Assembly (NCBI RefSeq): GCF_003330765.1
Contig: NZ_CP024902.1
Location: 434,001 to 498,000 of the forward strand
DNA from: Burkholderia pyrrocinia
GTDB lineage: Bacteria; Pseudomonadota; Gammaproteobacteria; Burkholderiales; Burkholderiaceae
Direction: 5' to 3'
Length of the DNA stretch: 64,000 bases
The notes under the pieces are model-generated. The model was not told where the DNA came from and did not search any database. It saw only the letters and a list, made by a program, of their open reading frames with translations. A program made the position numbers and the translations under genes. Positions 1 to 20,939 of this stretch are shown here, in pieces. How positions within the stretch are numbered: position 1 is the stretch's first letter; every line of letters begins with the position of its first letter.

Positions 1-1367
1 CCGCCAGGGTGCGACCGAGGCTAGGAGGTAAAGACCCTCGCTACATGACGCCCCGGTGGTGTGACGCAGAGGACGCGAACCTATACGCCATTGGACGGCT
101 ACTGAGAAGCGCCGCGACTGGCGAGCTTGATTTCACGGCTCGCCAATGGGTGCTACGCGACGAGAACGTTGGGTGGTATCGAGGAATTGGCAGCACGTGG
201 CAAAAGCGTCGAATCGGTATGCTAAATACGTCCGTTGCCATGGCGGGGACAACTGGCGCCATCACACCATGGTTCTCAGAACTTCTGCTCCAACTCCTGA
301 GATGGCCTGGACTGCAGGCACAACTCGAATCTAGCAATGAGGTTGGGCCAATTGCAAATGTGGTCGCGCTGCGGAACCTAGTGAGCAACCGCATTCAGGC
401 ACAAGCCGGCATCTTCGGCAATAGCTCCGGTCTTCCCCTGTACGTTTATCCCGTTGAGTGGCCGATTCGTGAGTCCCGATTGCTGCGTGTGTGCGTTATT
501 CAGGGCCTACTTCCTGTCACCAAGGACTTCTCCGGAGGGTTGGCAGGCTTGGATGAGCCGGCCTTTCGAGCGAGGCATAGGAACCACACGGCATCAATCC
601 TTCACTTGGCCTACCAACAGTTGCAGGCGCGCGACTCTGTACTCGGCAAGGACCACAAACCGTACGTCGATTTGGTGGTGTTACCAGAGTACAGCGTCCA
701 TATTGATGACCAAGACCTGATGCGCGCATTCTCGGACGGCACTGGCGCGATGCTCTTTTACGGGCTGTGTGGGGCAACCGAACCGGTCAGCGGTAAGCCG
801 ATTAACGCCGCTCGCTGGTTAGTACCACAGCGCCGTGCGGGAGGTCGCTCGTGGGTAGAGGTCGACCAAGGGAAGATGTACCCAACGCCCGAAGAGGTAG
901 CTCTCGGTGTCAACCCGTGGCGCCCTTATCAGGTTGTTATTGAACTGCGCTCCGGTGACAAAGCTGAATTCCGTATCTCGGGGGCGATATGCTACGACGC
1001 TACCGACATTTCGCTGCCTGCCGATTTGCGCAACGTCTCAAACATGTTCATCGTTTCTGCCATGAATAAGGACGTCAAGACATTCGATAGCATGGTTGGG
1101 ATGCTTCGGTACCACATGTATCAACACGTGCTGGTTGCGAATGCCGGCGAGTTTGGCGGCTCGACCGCTCAAGCTCCCTACGAGCAGGAGCACATGCGCT
1201 TGATATCGCATAATCACGGCTCCGAGCAGATAGCCGTCAGCGTTTTCGACGTGAACATCGACCATTTTGGTCCGAATCTGGACGCTGCGAAGCCCGCAAT
1301 ACCCAGCCCCGGAGGGAAGACCAGGCGCATCGGCAAAACCCCGCCGGCGGGCCTGAACCGCCATTGA
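1..1367 (+). CDS. C-terminal part of a nitrilase-domain protein, probably an RT-nitrilase (DRT1/UG1-like) defence protein; truncated by the window edge
   Basis: The frame is open through the left edge (codons start at base 3) and ends in TGA, so the gene very likely begins outside the window; a GTG at 9 is the first possible internal start. The last ~300 residues show the carbon-nitrogen hydrolase pattern: a Glu in VVLPEYS, a Lys in the DQGKMYP segment, a Cys in GAICYD, and a downstream VANAGEFGGS turn. The ~150 residues before it (YRGI, KRRIGMLN, WPGL motifs) do not belong to a nitrilase and resemble, from memory, the helical linker of UG1 reverse transcriptases, in which an RT is fused to a C-terminal nitrilase for anti-phage defence. 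Nitrilase fold: fairly sure. RT fusion: inference, because the catalytic RT part would be upstream. It converges on the ATPase gene at 1450. Confidence 0.6.
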   Translation, partial: ARVRPRLGGKDPRYMTPRWCDAEDANLYAIGRLLRSAATGELDFTARQWVLRDENVGWYRGIGSTWQKRRIGMLNTSVAMAGTTGAITPWFSELLLQLLRWPGLQAQLESSNEVGPIANVVALRNLVSNRIQAQAGIFGNSSGLPLYVYPVEWPIRESRLLRVCVIQGLLPVTKDFSGGLAGLDEPAFRARHRNHTASILHLAYQQLQARDSVLGKDHKPYVDLVVLPEYSVHIDDQDLMRAFSDGTGAMLFYGLCGATEPVSGKPINAARWLVPQRRAGGRSWVEVDQGKMYPTPEEVALGVNPWRPYQVVIELRSGDKAEFRISGAICYDATDISLPADLRNVSNMFIVSAMNKDVKTFDSMVGMLRYHMYQHVLVANAGEFGGSTAQAPYEQEHMRLISHNHGSEQIAVSVFDVNIDHFGPNLDAAKPAIPSPGGKTRRIGKTPPAGLNRH

Positions 1368-14084: not shown

Positions 14085-16580
14085 TTACGAATACCTCAAC
14101 CTGTGAGTCTCAAATGGTCCGTCATCAACCAGGCGGTCGTCAACCAATCGCCAAAGACGGAATCCGCCGTCGCGTCCTTCCTTTCCGACCATGAAGACAC
14201 GGCCGTAGGTAATGTGGTGTGCGGCTGCCTTAGCCCTGTCGTACTGCTGAAGTTGCGGTCCCTTTAGTTCCAGCAAAGCAATTCCGCCTCCTTCGGAGCG
14301 ACCAGCTATTCTAATTACGAAGTCAGGAAAGAAACCGACGCCGCCGGACCATTGATATAAGCTGACTGACTCTGGTCTATGGACAGGGTTGCGATGCCAC
14401 CATACGACCTCCTTCGCCGAGTCGATGTGCTCCGCGAATTCGCGTTCCTGAGGTGACAGGCTGTCCGGGAAAACACCATAGATGTTGCGCTTCGCCGGCA
14501 GCAAAGGGCTGGGGCTTTCTATCGCAGATGGAAGTTTCACGATTGTCGCTTCGACATTTTCGGCGCGTACGCGCTTGTACGCTTGACGAATCAAGCTTTC
14601 ATTACGTACAAGCACCAACTCCAGTTGTCGAGTAAGTTGCTCCTCCGTGTCCGGCAATTCGTGCCCCTCTTCCTGCAGCGCGCTTTTGAACCGCTCCTTC
14701 AGCGCAAGCAGCAGTTCCCGTCGGTCGAGTTCATCAAACTCGAATGCGATTTGGCGCGCGCGGTCTGCAATTGCGGCCGGAGACACGTTGGCCCAAACAT
14801 CGTGGTCTTCCGGAGACGTTTTGGAAAACACGTCTTCGACCCGTTCAGTCACGCGGGACCGAACTTTATATCGGTCGCCTAGCACCTTACTGAAATCGAT
14901 ATGTGCGACGAGACGCTCTTCCACGTCGTCCGGAGCAGCTGGTAACTTCTCCGCCACCAGAGTCGACGGCATGCCTTCCTTGAGCGAATATCGCTGGCCA
15001 CCCGATTGCGCTTCTAACTCGAACGCGCGCGTTAGAGGAGACGCTTCCGCAAAGCCGTGCACGAGTTTTTGCGATACATCGGGGCCTTCCGGATTCAACG
15101 TCTCAAACAACGCGGCTTGAATTGCCGTCGGTGCGGACAAAGGCACGTCATCGACGCCCTCATCTTCAGGAGGTTCTAGGCCTTCGGGCGTGACGCTGCT
15201 CTCGTCATGCAAGAGCGACAGTGATTCACCCGGATGAACTACTTGTACGGTCGCACTGCCAGCAAGAACCGTGACGACAGTCGATGGATTTGCCGAAGCG
15301 AGTTGCTGAGGCATCTGATTGATTCTCGCCGCAGCGCCGACTAACCCTTCCTGAGCTTCACTATTCGCAAGAAACACATAACCGTAGTTTAGGACGGCGG
15401 GAACGGACTCGAGCTTTCCTTGCAGCAGTCTGTGCACACGCATAATGCGTCCCACAACTTGGATGCCGAAATCGGTGTCGCGATTTCCACGTAACGCTGC
15501 CAGCGTAAAGGCGCGAGGCGCATCAAAGCCGGTCGCTATCGCCATCTTGAAGATGATAACTTCGACCTGAGGGTCGTCAGCCAGTGCCGCCAGACTGGGG
15601 TCTGGCTCGTCGGCTGTATGCACGCGAACCGCTTCCTCAGAAAATTTCAGAGGTCCAGTTAGGTATTCCCGCGCCTTTTGTAGAGCTTGTCCGCCGTTGG
15701 GTACCTGAACAAGCATGAGGGGTGTCAGTGCTATCCCGATGTTGGCCAATGTCTCCTTGATTCGTCGGTGCATCGTTGCGCATTCCGACATCGCGACTTC
15801 TTCGAAGGCCAGCAACTGCGCATCGTCATGATTCTTAGCGATGAAACGTGCCGCTTTGACGCTCCGTTTCAGTAATTGAGCATCAACACCTTCCTTGCGA
15901 GTGATGGATGCCCATTCGGAAGGACCGCCGATGCGGTAACCCGTTTGCTGAGAGAATTTCTCCGCGTCCGCATCACGCGGCGTTGCGGTCATCATTAGCA
16001 CGAAGTCGGGTTGGACTACATTCGCAAAAAATTTACTGGCTTCCGACGCCCGAACAAATCCGTGATGAGCTTCGTCGACAACGACGCCGATTCGAAAATT
16101 TTCGTGACGAGCCTGCACAAGAAGGTCGTCGATGGCTAGCCCGGCCTCACCACTCTGTCGCGCCAGACGAGAATCCTTGCTTCGAGCGGCCACCGTTTGC
16201 CACGTCAGTACAAAAGTGGCGCCGGGCAACAGATTCTCCGCGCGCCGGCCTGATTCGATATCAAGTTGGGTAAGATTCGGTGCTTGGCTGGTCAACGCAG
16301 TCTTAGCTTGGTCGATGACACCAGCGAAAGGAGCAAACCAAATCCACAAGACTCTTTCTTCGGCTGAGAATCGGCTGAGCAGTTCGCAAGCAATGAGCGT
16401 TTTGCCAATCCCGGTCGGGGCTTGAAGCAATACGCACGCGTCCGCACGACGAAGCCTGTTCAGCTCGACCTCAGATGCATCTTTGCCGAGCGCATCGTAG
16501 CGAGACTTCAATGCGCGGAACCTGCTAAGCAACGCCTCAATATGTTGCTTCTGAAACGACATTGGGCTGATTCGGCTCAT
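14085..16580 (-). CDS. res: Type III restriction subunit (Res): DEAH helicase with PD-(D/E)XK nuclease
   Basis: 831 residues. Superfamily 2 helicase motifs: Walker A PTGIGKT at 55-61, DEAH at 169-172, motif III TATPR shortly after, and a C-terminal helicase half with QVVGRIMR (motif VI). Near the C-terminus GFFPDF followed by LLELKGP matches the D...ExK centre of the type III Res endonuclease. Res and Mod form a complex that translocates or diffuses along DNA and cuts when two unmethylated sites face each other. Its ATG overlaps the mod stop by four bases, so the two are co-translated in the order mod-res. It is somewhat shorter than EcoP1/EcoP15 Res (~970 aa). Confidence 0.82.
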   Translation of the reverse strand: MSRISPMSFQKQHIEALLSRFRALKSRYDALGKDASEVELNRLRRADACVLLQAPTGIGKTLIACELLSRFSAEERVLWIWFAPFAGVIDQAKTALTSQAPNLTQLDIESGRRAENLLPGATFVLTWQTVAARSKDSRLARQSGEAGLAIDDLLVQARHENFRIGVVVDEAHHGFVRASEASKFFANVVQPDFVLMMTATPRDADAEKFSQQTGYRIGGPSEWASITRKEGVDAQLLKRSVKAARFIAKNHDDAQLLAFEEVAMSECATMHRRIKETLANIGIALTPLMLVQVPNGGQALQKAREYLTGPLKFSEEAVRVHTADEPDPSLAALADDPQVEVIIFKMAIATGFDAPRAFTLAALRGNRDTDFGIQVVGRIMRVHRLLQGKLESVPAVLNYGYVFLANSEAQEGLVGAAARINQMPQQLASANPSTVVTVLAGSATVQVVHPGESLSLLHDESSVTPEGLEPPEDEGVDDVPLSAPTAIQAALFETLNPEGPDVSQKLVHGFAEASPLTRAFELEAQSGGQRYSLKEGMPSTLVAEKLPAAPDDVEERLVAHIDFSKVLGDRYKVRSRVTERVEDVFSKTSPEDHDVWANVSPAAIADRARQIAFEFDELDRRELLLALKERFKSALQEEGHELPDTEEQLTRQLELVLVRNESLIRQAYKRVRAENVEATIVKLPSAIESPSPLLPAKRNIYGVFPDSLSPQEREFAEHIDSAKEVVWWHRNPVHRPESVSLYQWSGGVGFFPDFVIRIAGRSEGGGIALLELKGPQLQQYDRAKAAAHHITYGRVFMVGKEGRDGGFRLWRLVDDRLVDDGPFETHRLRYS

Positions 16581-18265
16581 TCCGACACCTCTAGTTCTTC
16601 TCTGAGTTCGGTTACACGTGCGTTTCCTTGCTTGAAAATTCGTCGCAAGTCGCCAGGTATGGCCACGATACTTATCTGGTCGGCAAGGTCACCCAAAGCG
16701 CTTACCACAGCTTGCGGAGCCCACGTCAACACGACAACCTTTCCGTCGAAGCCCTTTAATTGGACGACGAGTCTGTCCAACGTTGAGTGACGGGTGTTCG
16801 CACAATATGCGATTAGATGGTTGCCATTCACCGAGGTGGCCAATGGTAAATCCAGTGCAGTGACTGGATGGTCGCATGCCATTAGGGCGAAATTCCATAC
16901 CATCTCATCGGTCAGGTGCTCTTCCAGTCGATGCATGGCGACCGGCTTCGCGCGTAGGTATGCGAATTCTCCACCGAGGCCCGGCACTGCGCCATTGCGC
17001 GTAGACCGATAGCCTTCAATCACATCACGAACTCGTTTTGCACACACGTCGCGGCAAAGATTCTTGTCCGGGTCTTCGTCGGTTGCTTCTCGGCTCGAGA
17101 CGAGAACGAATCGCCGTGCGCCCCCGTCTTCTTTATTCATCTTCAGCACAGCTTGCGCTGTGGTGCCCGAGCCGGCAAAAAAGTCGAGGATTACTGCGTC
17201 TTTCTCTGGGGCGCCAATTTGCAACACGCGCTCCATGAGTCGCACGGGTTTGGGAGTGTCGAAGGCCGTTTGTGTCCCAAAGATTGCTTGAATCTCCTTC
17301 CGCGCCTCGTCTGTATGGCCGACCTCCTCGTGTGGCCACCACGTCCATGGGACCGCGCCCTCAACCTCGGAGAGATACCGGATGATGCTCGGCTGTGCGT
17401 TGCCGTCCTTTCCCCAGTAGACTCGCCCCTGCTCCTTAAGCTTCAGAAATTCAGGCTCAATCATAGACCAGCACCGACCCTCAGGAGGGGTATGTACCTT
17501 CCCGGTAGGGCCCGTAATTGCGTACATTTGGTTTGGTCGAAATCCTTGCGCAGTCATCGGGATGCCGCGCCAACGTTTAGTCGGGTCCGTCTCGTTCGGA
17601 TTTTCAGGGTTCTTATAGACCTTCGCCTGAACCTCTGTGAGAGGAATGCGTCCTCGACGCTGCTTAAATTTATCCGGATTGGGCGCGTAGACGAGAAGAT
17701 ACTCGTGTGCGTCGCCTATGGCCTCTCGGTTTTCACGAGAATAGCGCTTTTGCCAAATACAGTTGGCGACAAACCGCCTCTCTCCAAACACTTGGTTCAT
17801 GAGCAACCCAAGATTGAAGAGCTCGTTATCATCGATGGAAATAAATATTGCTCCATCTTCTCGCAGCAACGACTTCGCAAGCGCAAGTCGCTGGTACATA
17901 AACTCGAGCCATGTTGAATGGCGGTATCTATTCGTGGTGTCGAAATAGTGGTCGTTATAGACGAAATCGCGCCGGCCCGTGTTATACGGTACGTCGATGT
18001 AGATGAGATGGAACGCGCCCGCGTGCGTCGTCGCAAGGTGTCGGAGCGCATCGTAATTGTCACCTTCTATGATGAGGTTACGATGAGGTTCTGCTCCACA
18101 CGAAAGGGATGCGTCGAATTCTAAACCAACAAAGTCTCGGTTCAGCGCCTTGTCGGCTTCGATGTCAGTGCGCTCCCAATGCAAGCCGTATCGTGCTTGA
18201 GCGTCGCGGCGCTTCAAAATGGCAATGAGCGCCTGTTTGGTAAGGTTCTCGTACTCCAAGCTCAA
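16577..18265 (-). CDS. mod: Type III modification methyltransferase (Mod), N6-adenine class beta
   Basis: 562 residues when started at the TTG at 18265-18263. That start is chosen because AAGGA lies five bases before it, it overlaps the stop of the preceding small gene as TTGA, and the protein then begins MSLEYENLTKQ, the usual Mod beginning. A longer frame to 18337 gives a basic, unlikely leader. Motif IV is at residues 91-94 but reads DVPY rather than the usual DPPY; the SAM-binding motif I is FFAGSGTT about residue 357, in the order typical of beta-class enzymes with the target-recognition region between. Methylates one strand of an asymmetric site and provides specificity for Res. Confidence 0.85.
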   Translation of the reverse strand: MSLEYENLTKQALIAILKRRDAQARYGLHWERTDIEADKALNRDFVGLEFDASLSCGAEPHRNLIIEGDNYDALRHLATTHAGAFHLIYIDVPYNTGRRDFVYNDHYFDTTNRYRHSTWLEFMYQRLALAKSLLREDGAIFISIDDNELFNLGLLMNQVFGERRFVANCIWQKRYSRENREAIGDAHEYLLVYAPNPDKFKQRRGRIPLTEVQAKVYKNPENPNETDPTKRWRGIPMTAQGFRPNQMYAITGPTGKVHTPPEGRCWSMIEPEFLKLKEQGRVYWGKDGNAQPSIIRYLSEVEGAVPWTWWPHEEVGHTDEARKEIQAIFGTQTAFDTPKPVRLMERVLQIGAPEKDAVILDFFAGSGTTAQAVLKMNKEDGGARRFVLVSSREATDEDPDKNLCRDVCAKRVRDVIEGYRSTRNGAVPGLGGEFAYLRAKPVAMHRLEEHLTDEMVWNFALMACDHPVTALDLPLATSVNGNHLIAYCANTRHSTLDRLVVQLKGFDGKVVVLTWAPQAVVSALGDLADQISIVAIPGDLRRIFKQGNARVTELREELEVSE

Positions 18266-18465
18266 ATTTTCCTTGTCTCGGAGACATGTAAGGTCCGAGT
18301 CGGCTCTACGTCGACGTCGATGCCTCTGCTCCTGCAATAATCAAAGACCAGCTTCTCAATCATGTTGGTCTGGGAGCGTCGCTCAGCCAGCGCCGCTAGC
18401 TCTAAGCCGCGCTTGAACGCTGGCGTCACTCGAAAGCTGACCGGTATTCGTTTGCTGTCTTGCAC
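18262..18465 (-). CDS. Small putative ribbon-helix-helix protein heading the mod-res operon
   Basis: 67 residues from the GTG at 18465-18463, which has AGGAG six bases upstream; an in-frame ATG at 18504 is less well placed. The sequence KRIPVSFRVTPAFKRGLELAA has the short beta-strand plus helix layout of Arc/MetJ/CopG-type proteins, so it may bind DNA and regulate the operon. The stop overlaps the TTG of mod by four bases, indicating coupled translation. The family assignment is tentative because the protein is short. Confidence 0.55.
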   Translation of the reverse strand: MQDSKRIPVSFRVTPAFKRGLELAALAERRSQTNMIEKLVFDYCRSRGIDVDVEPTRTLHVSETRKI

Positions 18466-18678: not shown

Positions 18679-18861
18679 ATGCAAGAAAACAATGGGAAGC
18701 TCAGGGGCCGCGACTATCGTTTCCGGGTTGTTGATGTGCATCCAAAAATAGTCGAGATATGGCGCGAACTCGATTCACCAGAATCTGCGGGGAAGTATGA
18801 GTTACAAGTACTCAAGATTGGATGTAAGGAACCGGGAATGGTTTACTACCGACAACTCTAG
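18679..18861 (+). CDS. Short frame that may be the displaced N-terminus of the following ATPase
   Basis: 60 codons, overlapping the next gene by 65 bases in another frame. The translation reads like real protein (RDYRFRVVDVHPKIVEIW, then GKYELQVL) but no family is recognised and no clear ribosome binding site is seen. If one base is removed near 18847, the reading passes from GMVYY into DNSRQSLIRIVLREG of the ATPase frame, giving a single longer ATPase. It could therefore be an N-terminal extension cut off by a frameshift, or an independent small gene. Confidence 0.35.
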   Translation: MQENNGKLRGRDYRFRVVDVHPKIVEIWRELDSPESAGKYELQVLKIGCKEPGMVYYRQL

Positions 18862-20410
18862 GCAAAGTCTAATAAGAATAGTGCTGCGAGAAGGGAGTAT
18901 TCGTAGCCTCAAACCATGCGCGGTGGAATTTCGATATCCACTCACTGCTGTTTCCGGGAAAAATGGTTCTGGGAAGTCGACTATGCTTGCAATGGCGGCA
19001 TGTGCTTTCCATAACTTAAAATCCAGCCTGCCTGGCTTCCCAGGGAGGAAGCATGATTACTATACATTTTCGGATTTTTTTGTTCAATCAATCGACGAAC
19101 TGACGCCAGAGGGTGTCACAATTGCGTATTCCATTCGTCATGATAAATGGAAGGAGGCTACTCATTTGCCAGGCGGAATTGGATTGGGGCGCCAAGTCCG
19201 GCAAAAAAAGAAAGGCGGAAAATGGACGGAGTATAATCGTCGCGTCCATCGAGAGGTAATGTTTTTTGGCATTAACCGCGTGGTCCCCCATTCGGAGCGC
19301 AGCGGTGCAGTGGGGCATCGGGCGACGTTTCGAGTCATTGAGCGCGGTGGATGGGAGGATGAGGTAAGGGCAGCCGTCGGGAAAATCCTCGGGGTTTCCT
19401 ACGACGATTTTCAATTGAAGCGCGCCTTGAAGCATCGTCTGCCGGTGGTTCGGCGTCGGATGGGGACGTATTCCGGTTTCAATATGGGGGCAGGTGAGAA
19501 TGCGCTCTTTGACCTGTTGTCCTATTTATATGCTTGTCCGGGAAGTCCGCTTGTCCTCATCGACGAATTGGAGCTTGGTTTGCACGAGCAAGCACAAAAG
19601 CGCCTCATTGAACACTTAAAGCAGCTTTGCTTTGATAGAAAGATGCAAATTATTTGCACAACGCATTCGCCAACAATTCTTGATGCTTTGCCGCCAGAGG
19701 GCAGATTATACGTCGAGAGCAATGAGAATCAGACGGTCGTCATTCCGGCTATCTCAGCTCTTTTCGCAGCCGGAAAATTGAGTGGCGTGAATGGCCTCGA
19801 GCTGGACATTTTTGTCGAGGATGACGTAGCTGCAGCATTGGTGACGGCAGCGCTACCGGTGTCGGCGCGAAAGCGCGTGACGATACGTCCCATCGGCTCG
19901 GCAGGTGCCGTGGTGCGTCAAATGGCAGCGCGCTACAAAGAAGGGCGGACATCAAACGTACTGGCAATTCTGGACGGAGACCAATCCAAGCGCTTGGCGG
20001 CGCACGCAAAGGTATTTGCGAATGCGCTGGAGGCAGTCACAGATGTTGATACGGCTAAGGAATGGTTCGAAAGCAGCCTCTTTTTCCTTCCCGGGGATAC
20101 GTGGCCTGAGCGATGGATGGTCGAACAACTACTAACTGACGTCGGGCTGAGTACCATTTGTAGTGAGTTCGGCACTGATATCCATACGACTCGGGAAGAG
20201 TTGGAGTCGTCTCTGCGTGCAGAGAAGCATGGCGAGCTCTTCTGCCTAGCAGATAGCTTCGCGCTGGACGAGAACAGTTGTCGAGATGCTTGCGCGCGTC
20301 TGGTGGCTCGTGTTTATGGAGCCGAGTTGTCGGCCACGATGGCTGGGGTATTTGCCCACCTCGGCCATAGCACCGTCGAACCTGCCGCGCGACTGGGCGC
20401 AGGCACGTAG
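18797..20410 (+). CDS. OLD-like AAA ATPase with C-terminal TOPRIM-like part
   Basis: 537 residues from the ATG at 18797. Walker A GKNGSGKS is at 54-61, the signature MGAGENALF at 230-238, Walker B PLVLIDEL at 251-258 followed by ELGLHE, and a TTHSPT switch after that. The C-terminal part has DIFVEDDV and LAILDGDQ, spaced like the acidic TOPRIM residues of OLD-type nucleases. Such proteins act as stand-alone or partnered phage-defence ATPase-nucleases. The first ~25 residues are doubtful: the neighbouring frame looks more protein-like there, so the gene may be frameshifted or start internally. It lies between the type III system and the end of the island. Confidence 0.7.
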   Translation: MSYKYSRLDVRNREWFTTDNSRQSLIRIVLREGSIRSLKPCAVEFRYPLTAVSGKNGSGKSTMLAMAACAFHNLKSSLPGFPGRKHDYYTFSDFFVQSIDELTPEGVTIAYSIRHDKWKEATHLPGGIGLGRQVRQKKKGGKWTEYNRRVHREVMFFGINRVVPHSERSGAVGHRATFRVIERGGWEDEVRAAVGKILGVSYDDFQLKRALKHRLPVVRRRMGTYSGFNMGAGENALFDLLSYLYACPGSPLVLIDELELGLHEQAQKRLIEHLKQLCFDRKMQIICTTHSPTILDALPPEGRLYVESNENQTVVIPAISALFAAGKLSGVNGLELDIFVEDDVAAALVTAALPVSARKRVTIRPIGSAGAVVRQMAARYKEGRTSNVLAILDGDQSKRLAAHAKVFANALEAVTDVDTAKEWFESSLFFLPGDTWPERWMVEQLLTDVGLSTICSEFGTDIHTTREELESSLRAEKHGELFCLADSFALDENSCRDACARLVARVYGAELSATMAGVFAHLGHSTVEPAARLGAGT

Positions 20411-20482: not shown

Positions 20483-20488
20483 TATAAT
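20483..20488 (+). promoter_or_regulatory. Candidate -10 box (TATAAT) for the intron-bearing tRNA-Thr
   Basis: A perfect TATAAT sits 10 bases before the mature tRNA 5' end. The -35 region is not obvious. Position and context fit a tRNA promoter. Confidence 0.5.
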
Positions 20489-20498
20489 GTGAGATTGT

Positions 20499-20783
20499 GC
20501 CGCGTTAGCTCAGTTGGTAGAGCAACCGCCTTGAAGATACGAGTGCCTCATCGGAAACGATGGGAGTAGAACCCCTCAAACTCGGGGAAAGCTAAGGCCC
20601 GTCAGGGCTATGCCAATCCCGAGCCAAGCTTGCCGTCGGCAAGAAGGTGTAGAGACTAGACGGGGGGAGCCTAAAGCGTCAGCCATGGCTAAGGGATAGT
20701 CCAGACCACAAACATTTGGCGGCGAAAGCCGTAGTGGTAAGGTAAGCGGTAGGTCGTCTGTTCGAGTCAGACACGCGGCACCA
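20499..20783 (+). tRNA. tRNA-Thr(UGU) interrupted by a group I intron
   Basis: The exons are 20499-20532 and 20742-20783 (34 + 42 = 76 nt). Joined, they fold as a complete cloverleaf: acceptor GCCGCGT pairs fully with ACGCGGC, the anticodon stem ACCGC pairs with GCGGT around the loop CTTGTAA (anticodon TGT), the T-stem GTCTG pairs with CAGAC around TTCGAGT, and CCA is encoded. The intron follows the first anticodon base. The gene lies just inside the island end. Its body differs from the resident tRNA-Thr(UGU) remnant 100 bases away, so it is not a simple duplicate of it. The TGT anticodon identity depends on the splice sites proposed here. Confidence 0.88.
20533..20741 (+). ncRNA. Group I intron (IC3-like) in the tRNA-Thr anticodon loop
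   Basis: 209 nt with no open frame, so it depends on RNA catalysis alone. The layout and conserved core match the small Azoarcus tRNA-Ile intron: a P1 helix pairing the exon end CUU with intron GAG near 20541, with a U.G wobble at the 5' splice site; a P2 hairpin CTCATCG-GAAA-CGATGGG; the CTCAAACTCGGGGAAAGCTAAG segment in two parts (P3/P4 region); GAGCCAAGCTT; the near-invariant GGTGTAGAGACTAGACGG core (P3/P7); a late hairpin GGCGGCGAAAGCC; and a terminal G at 20741. Removal restores a perfect tRNA. Splice sites are inferred by pairing. Confidence 0.88.
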
Positions 20784-20891
20784 AGTTTTACGCGGCAAAC
20801 GCAACACCTGCATGAACGCAAGGCAACACCGCAGCGGGAGAACCTTTGATGGACAGGGGTTCGAAGCGCAACACCCTTTGGGTGCACATTC

Positions 20892-20939
20892 TGATTTGTA
20901 ATCATCAGGTGGCGGGTTCGAGTCCTGCAGCCGGCACCA
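20892..20939 (+). other. Attachment-site scar: 3' part of a resident tRNA-Thr(UGU) gene
   Basis: The segment reads as a tRNA from the 3' end of the anticodon 5' strand: loop TTTGTAA (anticodon TGT), stem TCATC, T-arm GCGGG-TTCGAGT-CCTGC, acceptor AGCCGGC and CCA. The sequence upstream does not complete the anticodon stem (TCTGA instead of the required GATGA) and has no D-arm or 5' acceptor. This is what remains at the distal end when an element integrates in a tRNA gene and rebuilds the intact gene at its other end. Orientation implies the island lies to the left and the intact gene is left of the window. Confidence 0.82.

Follow-up and report, generated by a model that had tools for sequence, protein, structure and literature searches.

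Actinobacteriophages that practise "tRNA-dependent lysogeny" break a tRNA gene of their host and supply a replacement tRNA, a principle shown experimentally according to the accessible part of the paper by Guerrero-Bustamante and Hatfull (2024, PMC10865867). In Archaea, tRNA introns brought by integrating elements may block further integration, as proposed in the accessible text of PMC3293823 (Sugahara 2012; citing Randau and Soll 2008). The accessible parts of two further sources state that the phage group I introns observed to 2014 all lay in protein genes (PMC3984707) and list bacterial tRNA introns in cyanobacteria and in alpha- and beta-proteobacteria (PMC4033280). The locus described here lies in a 64,000-nt stretch of Burkholderia pyrrocinia DNA (assembly GCF_003330765.1, contig NZ_CP024902.1, positions 434,001 to 498,000 of the forward strand), referred to as a whole as the window. 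It comprises a tRNA-Thr(UGU) gene that a group I intron interrupts and that is located on a 35.3-kb island; the island cuts the native tRNA-Thr(UGU) gene within the anticodon loop. It is highly probable that this arrangement has been read correctly and that the island gene, after predicted self-splicing, serves as the replacement of the native one. The features concerned are the following.

1-20891, no strand: in-window part of the 35.3-kb island, which starts at G000:C1:419584 (synteny break, Pfam recombinases)
20483-20488, + strand: TATAAT, possible -10 element immediately 5' of the intron-split tRNA-Thr (read from the sequence)
20499-20532, + strand: 5' exon of the putative replacement tRNA-Thr(UGU), last base U34 (sequence, ARAGORN with introns)
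20533-20741, + strand: group I intron of 209 nt, beginning after U34, last base G (RF00028 35.9 bits; covariation)
20742-20783, + strand: 3' exon of the putative replacement tRNA-Thr(UGU), including CCA (sequence, ARAGORN with introns)
20892-20897, + strand: TGATTT, present at either end of the island, crossover core within the anticodon arm of the tRNA (end comparison)
20892-20939, + strand: 3' half of the broken native tRNA-Thr(UGU), from which the chromosome resumes rightward (intact gene in relatives; only such 3' pattern in the genome)

Joining exons 20499-20532 and 20742-20783 yields a 76-nt tRNA-Thr(tgt) with an encoded CCA that ARAGORN accepts, as a sequence-only reading of the window had claimed for the cloverleaf left after removal of 20533-20741. 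With the intron set between anticodon bases U34 and G35, the last base of the 5' exon is U and that of the intron is G, and the exon junction of the spliced tRNA is predicted to read ..CCGCCTTGTAAGCGG... Default ARAGORN reports nothing for the unspliced gene, while its intron option detects it with the intron slid by one base, which bears out the expectation that standard tRNA finders would miss the gene. The TATAAT 5' of the tRNA is also present in 7 of the 15 relatives inspected by eye.

The sequence-only reading identified this gene and its intron but missed both the 3' half of the native gene, 108 nt further on, and the island context. That 3' half belongs to a tRNA-Thr(UGU) different from the intron-split one, and the matching 5' half lies outside the window at C1:419550-419583. 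Synteny with the loci of all 11 relatives compared (11/11) ends at C1:419583. When the flanks are joined, the resulting empty site is an intact tRNA-Thr(tgt), and its alignment to one relative (L058) is gap-free over 227 nt; alignments to all 17 relatives span the joint, in some cases with small gaps. A flank query of the native locus matches somewhere in 41 of the 41 genus genomes searched, the own genome included, and an intact tRNA-Thr(tgt) is found in 17 of the 20 stretches from relatives that were examined. The remaining three are a second place with another 3' half in a genome that has an intact copy (L064), another match (L066) and a stretch that stops short (L074). The insertion measures 35,307 bases, has a GC content of 0.565 as against 0.62 in both flanks, and carries the intron-split gene at its right end. 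What is directly observed for the replacement reading comprises the tRNA halves at both ends, the TGATTT core that they share, the intact gene in relatives and in the joined empty site, the failure of the pattern search to find another intact tRNA-Thr(UGU), and the covarying fold of the intron. Extra tRNA-Thr 3' halves downstream of the intact gene were observed in four relatives (L056, L057, L060, L061), and the locus of the native tRNA-Thr(UGU) has the appearance of a hot spot for integration.

The fold was examined in an alignment of 25 introns (16 Thr, 2 Lys and 7 Leu). The helix names P1-P9 used for it are those that we take to apply.

20530-20543, + strand: P1, exon CUU (20530-20532) with GAG (20541-20543), U.G at the 5' splice site; invariant in 25/25 introns
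20572-20667, + strand: P3, 20572-20577 with 20662-20667; both-sided changes in 3/6 pairs, 100% of cells paired
20654-20701, + strand: P7, 20654-20658 with 20697-20701; both-sided changes in 1/5 pairs, 100% of cells paired

Across the alignment, 96.4% of the cells with letters pair, compared with 83.4% in shuffles, a contrast inflated by related sequences, and with 28-47% when the partners are slid, a control over which the fold is favoured by having been written from the window intron alone. Both-sided changes occur in 30 of the 53 pairs (156 cells), and none of 500 shuffles is as high, a contrast subject to the same inflation. P3 and P7 form the expected pseudoknot. The insert has a P1 with U.G at the 5' splice site, a 3'-terminal G and a covarying P3/P7 core, as tRNA-type group I introns do, and it is a real group I intron; the coordinates given for the split gene by the sequence-only reading hold. 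Small tRNA introns of this type form subgroup IC3. The genome has another group I intron in tRNA-Leu(UAA) at G000:C1:1322025-1322288 (L002/L003), and many relatives in the genus have one likewise.

From these features a sequence of events may be proposed. One or more tyrosine recombinases of the island would have inserted it into the native tRNA-Thr(UGU) without rebuilding the tRNA. The intron would then remove itself from the transcript of the island tRNA by self-splicing with a guanosine cofactor. The spliced tRNA would read ACA codons and in this way keep the host alive and dependent on the island.

Whether the host needs this tRNA turns on the number of tRNA-Thr(UGU) genes. The sequence TGATTTGTAATCA occurs once in the 8.0-Mb genome, and a general tRNA-Thr(UGU) 3' pattern has a single match there, the native remnant. 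A pattern search of the genome found no other intact tRNA-Thr(UGU), and the intron-split gene is therefore likely to be the replacement. Island-free relatives G211 and G110 have one match each to the 3' pattern and G058 has two. No intact intron-less tRNA-Thr(UGU) was found by pattern in nine genomes with an intron-split tRNA-Thr (G000, G290, G325 and G401-G406); a pattern match in G405 and 3' matches in G402, G404 (two) and G405 prove to be broken halves. The split gene might instead be a dead relic or unrelated cargo, with ACA codons read by another tRNA, and the pattern-based nature of the sole-copy evidence leaves some room for this. The perfect cloverleaf, the intact covarying intron, the conserved exons and the nearby broken gene of identical isotype, seen in several unrelated hosts, all speak against a relic, as do the ACA codons present in 6 of the 7 window open reading frames (ORFs) counted, and we consider it very improbable.

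The replacement reading gains breadth from other genomes. The genome-contig scan used a pattern that favoured Thr-type 3' exons, and all counts drawn from it, here and below, hold among the matches listed. ARAGORN assigns tRNA-Thr(UGU) to at least 12 of 120 intron cores in 119 loci, and intron-split tRNA-Thr(UGU) genes also occur in other genomes. Exact copies are rare, since the exact motif was found in 1 of 369 genomes of the class, the window's own; a near-identity search of plasmids returned two records, both from Mycetohabitans and both matching only the 3' half and a few flanking bases. The 16 intron-split tRNA-Thr loci considered are those of the window, G290 and G325, twelve from the scan and one viral locus (L154). 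Five of them have clear broken halves, namely those of the window, G290, Thiobacillus (L208), Hydrogenophaga (L308, the 5' half being found on a separate contig, L367) and Acetobacter (L279, where an integrase above the PF00589 cut-off is also present). Decayed 3' remnants were recognised by eye in two more (G325 and Zoogloea L309), and in one from Massilia (L206) a stretch 66% identical to recombinase C adjoins the tRNA.

A minimal version of the element is found in the relative G290; it spans about 5.9 kb and consists, in order, of a tRNA-Thr 5' half, recombinase ORFs, a 155-aa ORF, the intron-split tRNA-Thr and the 3' half. Its recombinase ORFs encode 394, 566 and 633 aa; the first two contain PF00589 above the cut-off, and the third is 80% identical to its counterpart in the window island. 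Because this minimal element retains the split tRNA, the tRNA looks like part of the element core rather than random cargo.

Several points weigh against the replacement reading. The comparison with RF00028 that the sequence-only reading had proposed gave a whole-model match (35.9 bits, E 1.5e-7), but the score lies under the Rfam gathering score of 50, and an Rfam scan of the window at the gathering level reported nothing; the tRNA-Leu(UAA) intron of the same genome likewise scores 35.9 bits, below the cut-off. A consensus promoter scan for the split gene found none, and its splicing and charging are predictions. The sole-copy status is pattern-based, and the patterns would miss a tRNA that lacks CCA or whose T-loop is unusual. 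No broken half was seen in 8 of the 16 Thr loci, one of which (L293) ends just past the gene. Recombinases in these eight were sought only by a crude motif, which detects just the first recombinase of G290 and of the island, misses others confirmed by Pfam, and is therefore uninformative on absence. In L218 the split gene lies downstream of sspB, where relatives have the native gene, so that such a gene also exists without a visible element.

Two loci of this kind have been noted, L218:6171-6459 and L296:1598-1905, in which no broken halves were seen and an intron-split tRNA-Thr(UGU) occupies the native locus or a position close to it. This arrangement is possibly a domesticated end state.

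The tRNA-Leu(UAA) loci present a comparable picture. At least 13 of 85 non-viral Leu loci (84 from the genome-contig scan and one plasmid) have a broken half: L196, L205, L213, L224, L235, L243, L244, L246, L268, L292, L295, L311 and L314. The half detector flagged 12 loci, one of them spurious, and a junction search added L213 and L243. Within these 8-kb loci, the broken half is a 5' half in 12 and a 3' half in L295. In six (L196, L224, L246, L268, L292 and L314), the half and the intron-split tRNA enclose a protein of 396-442 aa that has integrase-family matches; its PF00589 score exceeds the cut-off only in L196 and falls below it in four, and L314 has a SAM-like integrase domain only. L213 was counted as broken because its anticodon stem does not continue, despite a downstream T-loop-like motif that one filter took for an intact gene. 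Rejected as broken halves were L240 (an AT-rich chance match), L225 and L302 (starts of further intron-split tRNAs) and L280 (ambiguous on inspection); the 8 loci flagged among 56 viral Leu loci look like AT-rich chance matches or complete tRNAs and were left uncounted. Among 158 Thr, Leu and Lys loci, viral ones included, no cross-isotype junction match was found in the non-viral loci, and those in nine viral loci are tRNA-like sequences followed by a T-loop.

A replacement need not contain an intron. In G661:C46 (L345/L351), two integrase-like genes are flanked on one side by the 5' half of a broken tRNA-Leu(CAA) and on the other by an intact tRNA-Leu(CAA) that lacks an intron and is a putative replacement. 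This case favours a passenger status of the intron: it would be an old tRNA group I intron, already present by chance in the donor tRNA, retained since the replacement is indispensable and without a role in integration. The group I introns in tRNA-Leu(UAA) of this genome and of many relatives point the same way. So does Gordonia phage OneUp, in which a 10-nt stretch of the intron-less tRNA recurs ahead of the integrase, a length equal to that of the core given in the accessible text of PMC10865867; a phage locus (L377) shares 9 nt. In the window and in G290, the spliced replacement would share only a 6-nt run with the native anticodon arm, and with so short a run no protection from the integrase seems needed. 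Such an origin has a probability only slightly short of even.

The opposing idea is that the intron masks the spare gene: it would split the crossover site at the DNA level, so that the integrase cannot insert into the spare or recombine attP with it, and splicing would restore the tRNA. The same has been argued for archaeal tRNA introns in the accessible text of PMC3293823. The insertion point does lie inside the shared stretch in the Thr, Leu and Lys cases. One example is Gordonia phage Daredevil (NC_048021.1, about 41.8-42.1 kb; L035:3001-3312), in which a group I intron of 238 nt interrupts an unannotated tRNA-Lys(UUU). Its spliced tRNA would have 16 bp in common with attP, precisely the stretch that the intron divides, which speaks against a passenger; the unspliced gene keeps none of the 16-bp attP core, its longest common run being 9 nt and located elsewhere. 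In Thiobacillus, the spliced spare would share 26 nt with the broken gene, again split exactly by the intron, and in Hydrogenophaga the shared stretch is 13 nt. Against masking, on the other hand, count intron-less replacements that have a short core intact (OneUp) or a changed loop (G661), and the window replacement, which already differs from the native arm. We regard masking as quite conceivable, though not as the probable outcome, and rate it about equal to a passenger origin. A more general statement, that elements in Proteobacteria and actinophages break an essential host tRNA at the anticodon loop and hide a spare of the same isotype from the integrase by means of a self-splicing group I intron in the spare's anticodon loop, which RNA splicing removes again, leaving the host addicted and the site closed to later integrases, is offered tentatively and is rather more apt to fail than to hold.

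Daredevil has been published as breaking tRNA-Lys(UUU) without encoding a tRNA of its own, and a figure legend words the missing tRNA as Ile2-CAT (accessible text of PMC10865867). The published absence, as far as that text states it, disagrees with the sequence: the tRNA-Lys gene has the same place and orientation relative to the integrase as the annotated tRNA of OneUp, and an attP-like copy of CGGACTTTTAATCCGC agrees with the published site. Since the intron-split tRNA-Lys(UUU) is present, the clear plaques described for Daredevil need another explanation, for which poor splicing or a weak tRNA (T-loop ATCGAAA) are candidates. Masking could be tested in this existing laboratory system.

Further intron-split tRNAs were noted on viral and plasmid sequences. 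Of 18 stretches obtained when viral sequences were scanned for the Thr motif, only L154 and L384 have introns. ARAGORN reports intron-split tRNAs on IMG/VR contigs (L104, L120, L125, L126, L134, L145, L154, L161, L176, L181 and others), with isotypes including Lys, Ala, Arg, Asn, Thr, Met and more, some of which may be slipped assignments. Plasmid pCTX-M3 (NC_004464.2; L034:3984-4282) contains an unannotated intron-split tRNA near aac(3)-IId, which ARAGORN calls tRNA-Stop(tta) and which is read here as tRNA-Leu(UAA). In addition, 1267 plasmid records match a tRNA-intron query at 60-80% identity.

The left end of the island holds three recombinase genes and a small ORF (C1:422319-427009). PF00589 is above the cut-off in two of the recombinases and below it in the third (21.7 vs 27.1 bits). 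The first recombinase gene appears interrupted by istA/istB-like genes (L052:6011-9156), one with an rve domain, a pair that we take to be of the IS21 type; because of this apparent interruption the island is probably no longer mobile, and the dependence of the host would be lasting. Recombinase C has matches in 17 of 398 family genomes, the own included, of which only that in G290 is close (80%); in the flanks of two relatives at 48% identity (L327, L328), neither ARAGORN nor the half patterns found a tRNA. Direct repeats containing GCAACACC lie between the intron-split tRNA and the native 3' half, and TGTTGC also occurs at the left end. The remaining features of the island are listed below.

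20797-20808, 20819-20830 and 20864-20875, + strand: three direct repeats, AAACGCAACACC / CAAGGCAACACC / AAGCGCAACACC, possible recombinase arm sites
14085-18337, - strand: type III restriction-modification cargo, res at 14085-16580 and mod at 16577-18337 (Pfam, PADLOC)
18797-20410, + strand: AAA ATPase of defence type beside the tRNA, best PADLOC match HEC-04 (Pfam, PADLOC)

Further cargo includes AAA ATPases of defence type, a VgrG and an H-NS-like gene. An ORF at window positions 9-1367 has its PADLOC match in the C-terminal portion of type 1 DRT defence proteins (Drt1a, E 6.6e-172), and its start may precede the window. Among 10 island ORFs compared with PHROGs, no capsid or tail family was found, and there was one weak match to a terminase small subunit (E 7.4e-6).

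Should the replacement reading hold, tRNA-dependent lysogeny would extend from actinophages to proteobacterial islands, and small bacterial tRNA introns would gain a possible use. The default settings of tRNA finders take no account of introns, so that tRNAs carried by mobile elements are overlooked. Searches of the open-licence literature turned up neither a group I intron in a bacterial tRNA-Thr, in agreement with the sequence-only reading, which named tRNA-Leu(UAA), -Ile(CAU), -Arg(CCU) and -fMet as known hosts of such introns, nor an intron in a replacement tRNA, nor an island carrying a replacement for the tRNA gene it breaks.

Among described systems, tRNA-dependent lysogeny, as presented in the accessible text of PMC10865867, is the one that the island resembles in its mode of action, since it breaks a host tRNA and carries a replacement. 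The island has a tyrosine integrase, a short core in a host tRNA and a carried tRNA, and the host tRNA is not rebuilt: no tRNA was found in the stretch with the left end or downstream of the intron-split gene. It is set beside these systems rather than filed as a member, for which a phage nature and a requirement of the carried tRNA for viability would be needed. It also differs from those phages in that the carried tRNA is split by an intron, there are several recombinases, the hosts are Proteobacteria, and the carrier is a 35-kb island or a 5.9-kb element with no phage structural genes recognised in the ORFs tested. Ordinary tRNA-targeting elements, such as those with a 3' half of the same tRNA-Thr in L056, L057, L060 and L061, leave the host gene intact, whereas here it is broken. 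The intron resembles the small tRNA group I introns of Azoarcus tRNA-Ile and cyanobacterial tRNA-Leu(UAA) in its length of about 200 nt, its position in the anticodon loop and its covarying P1-P9 fold, but its host tRNA is Thr(UGU). Archaeal tRNA introns, as far as the accessible text of PMC3293823 describes them, are similarly tied to integrase sites and to a proposed integration block; they are cut by protein enzymes and reside in a rebuilt host gene, in contrast to the ribozyme-type intron in a separate replacement gene found here. The replacement principle is known from phages, and what appears to be new is the intron within the replacement and the islands as its carriers.
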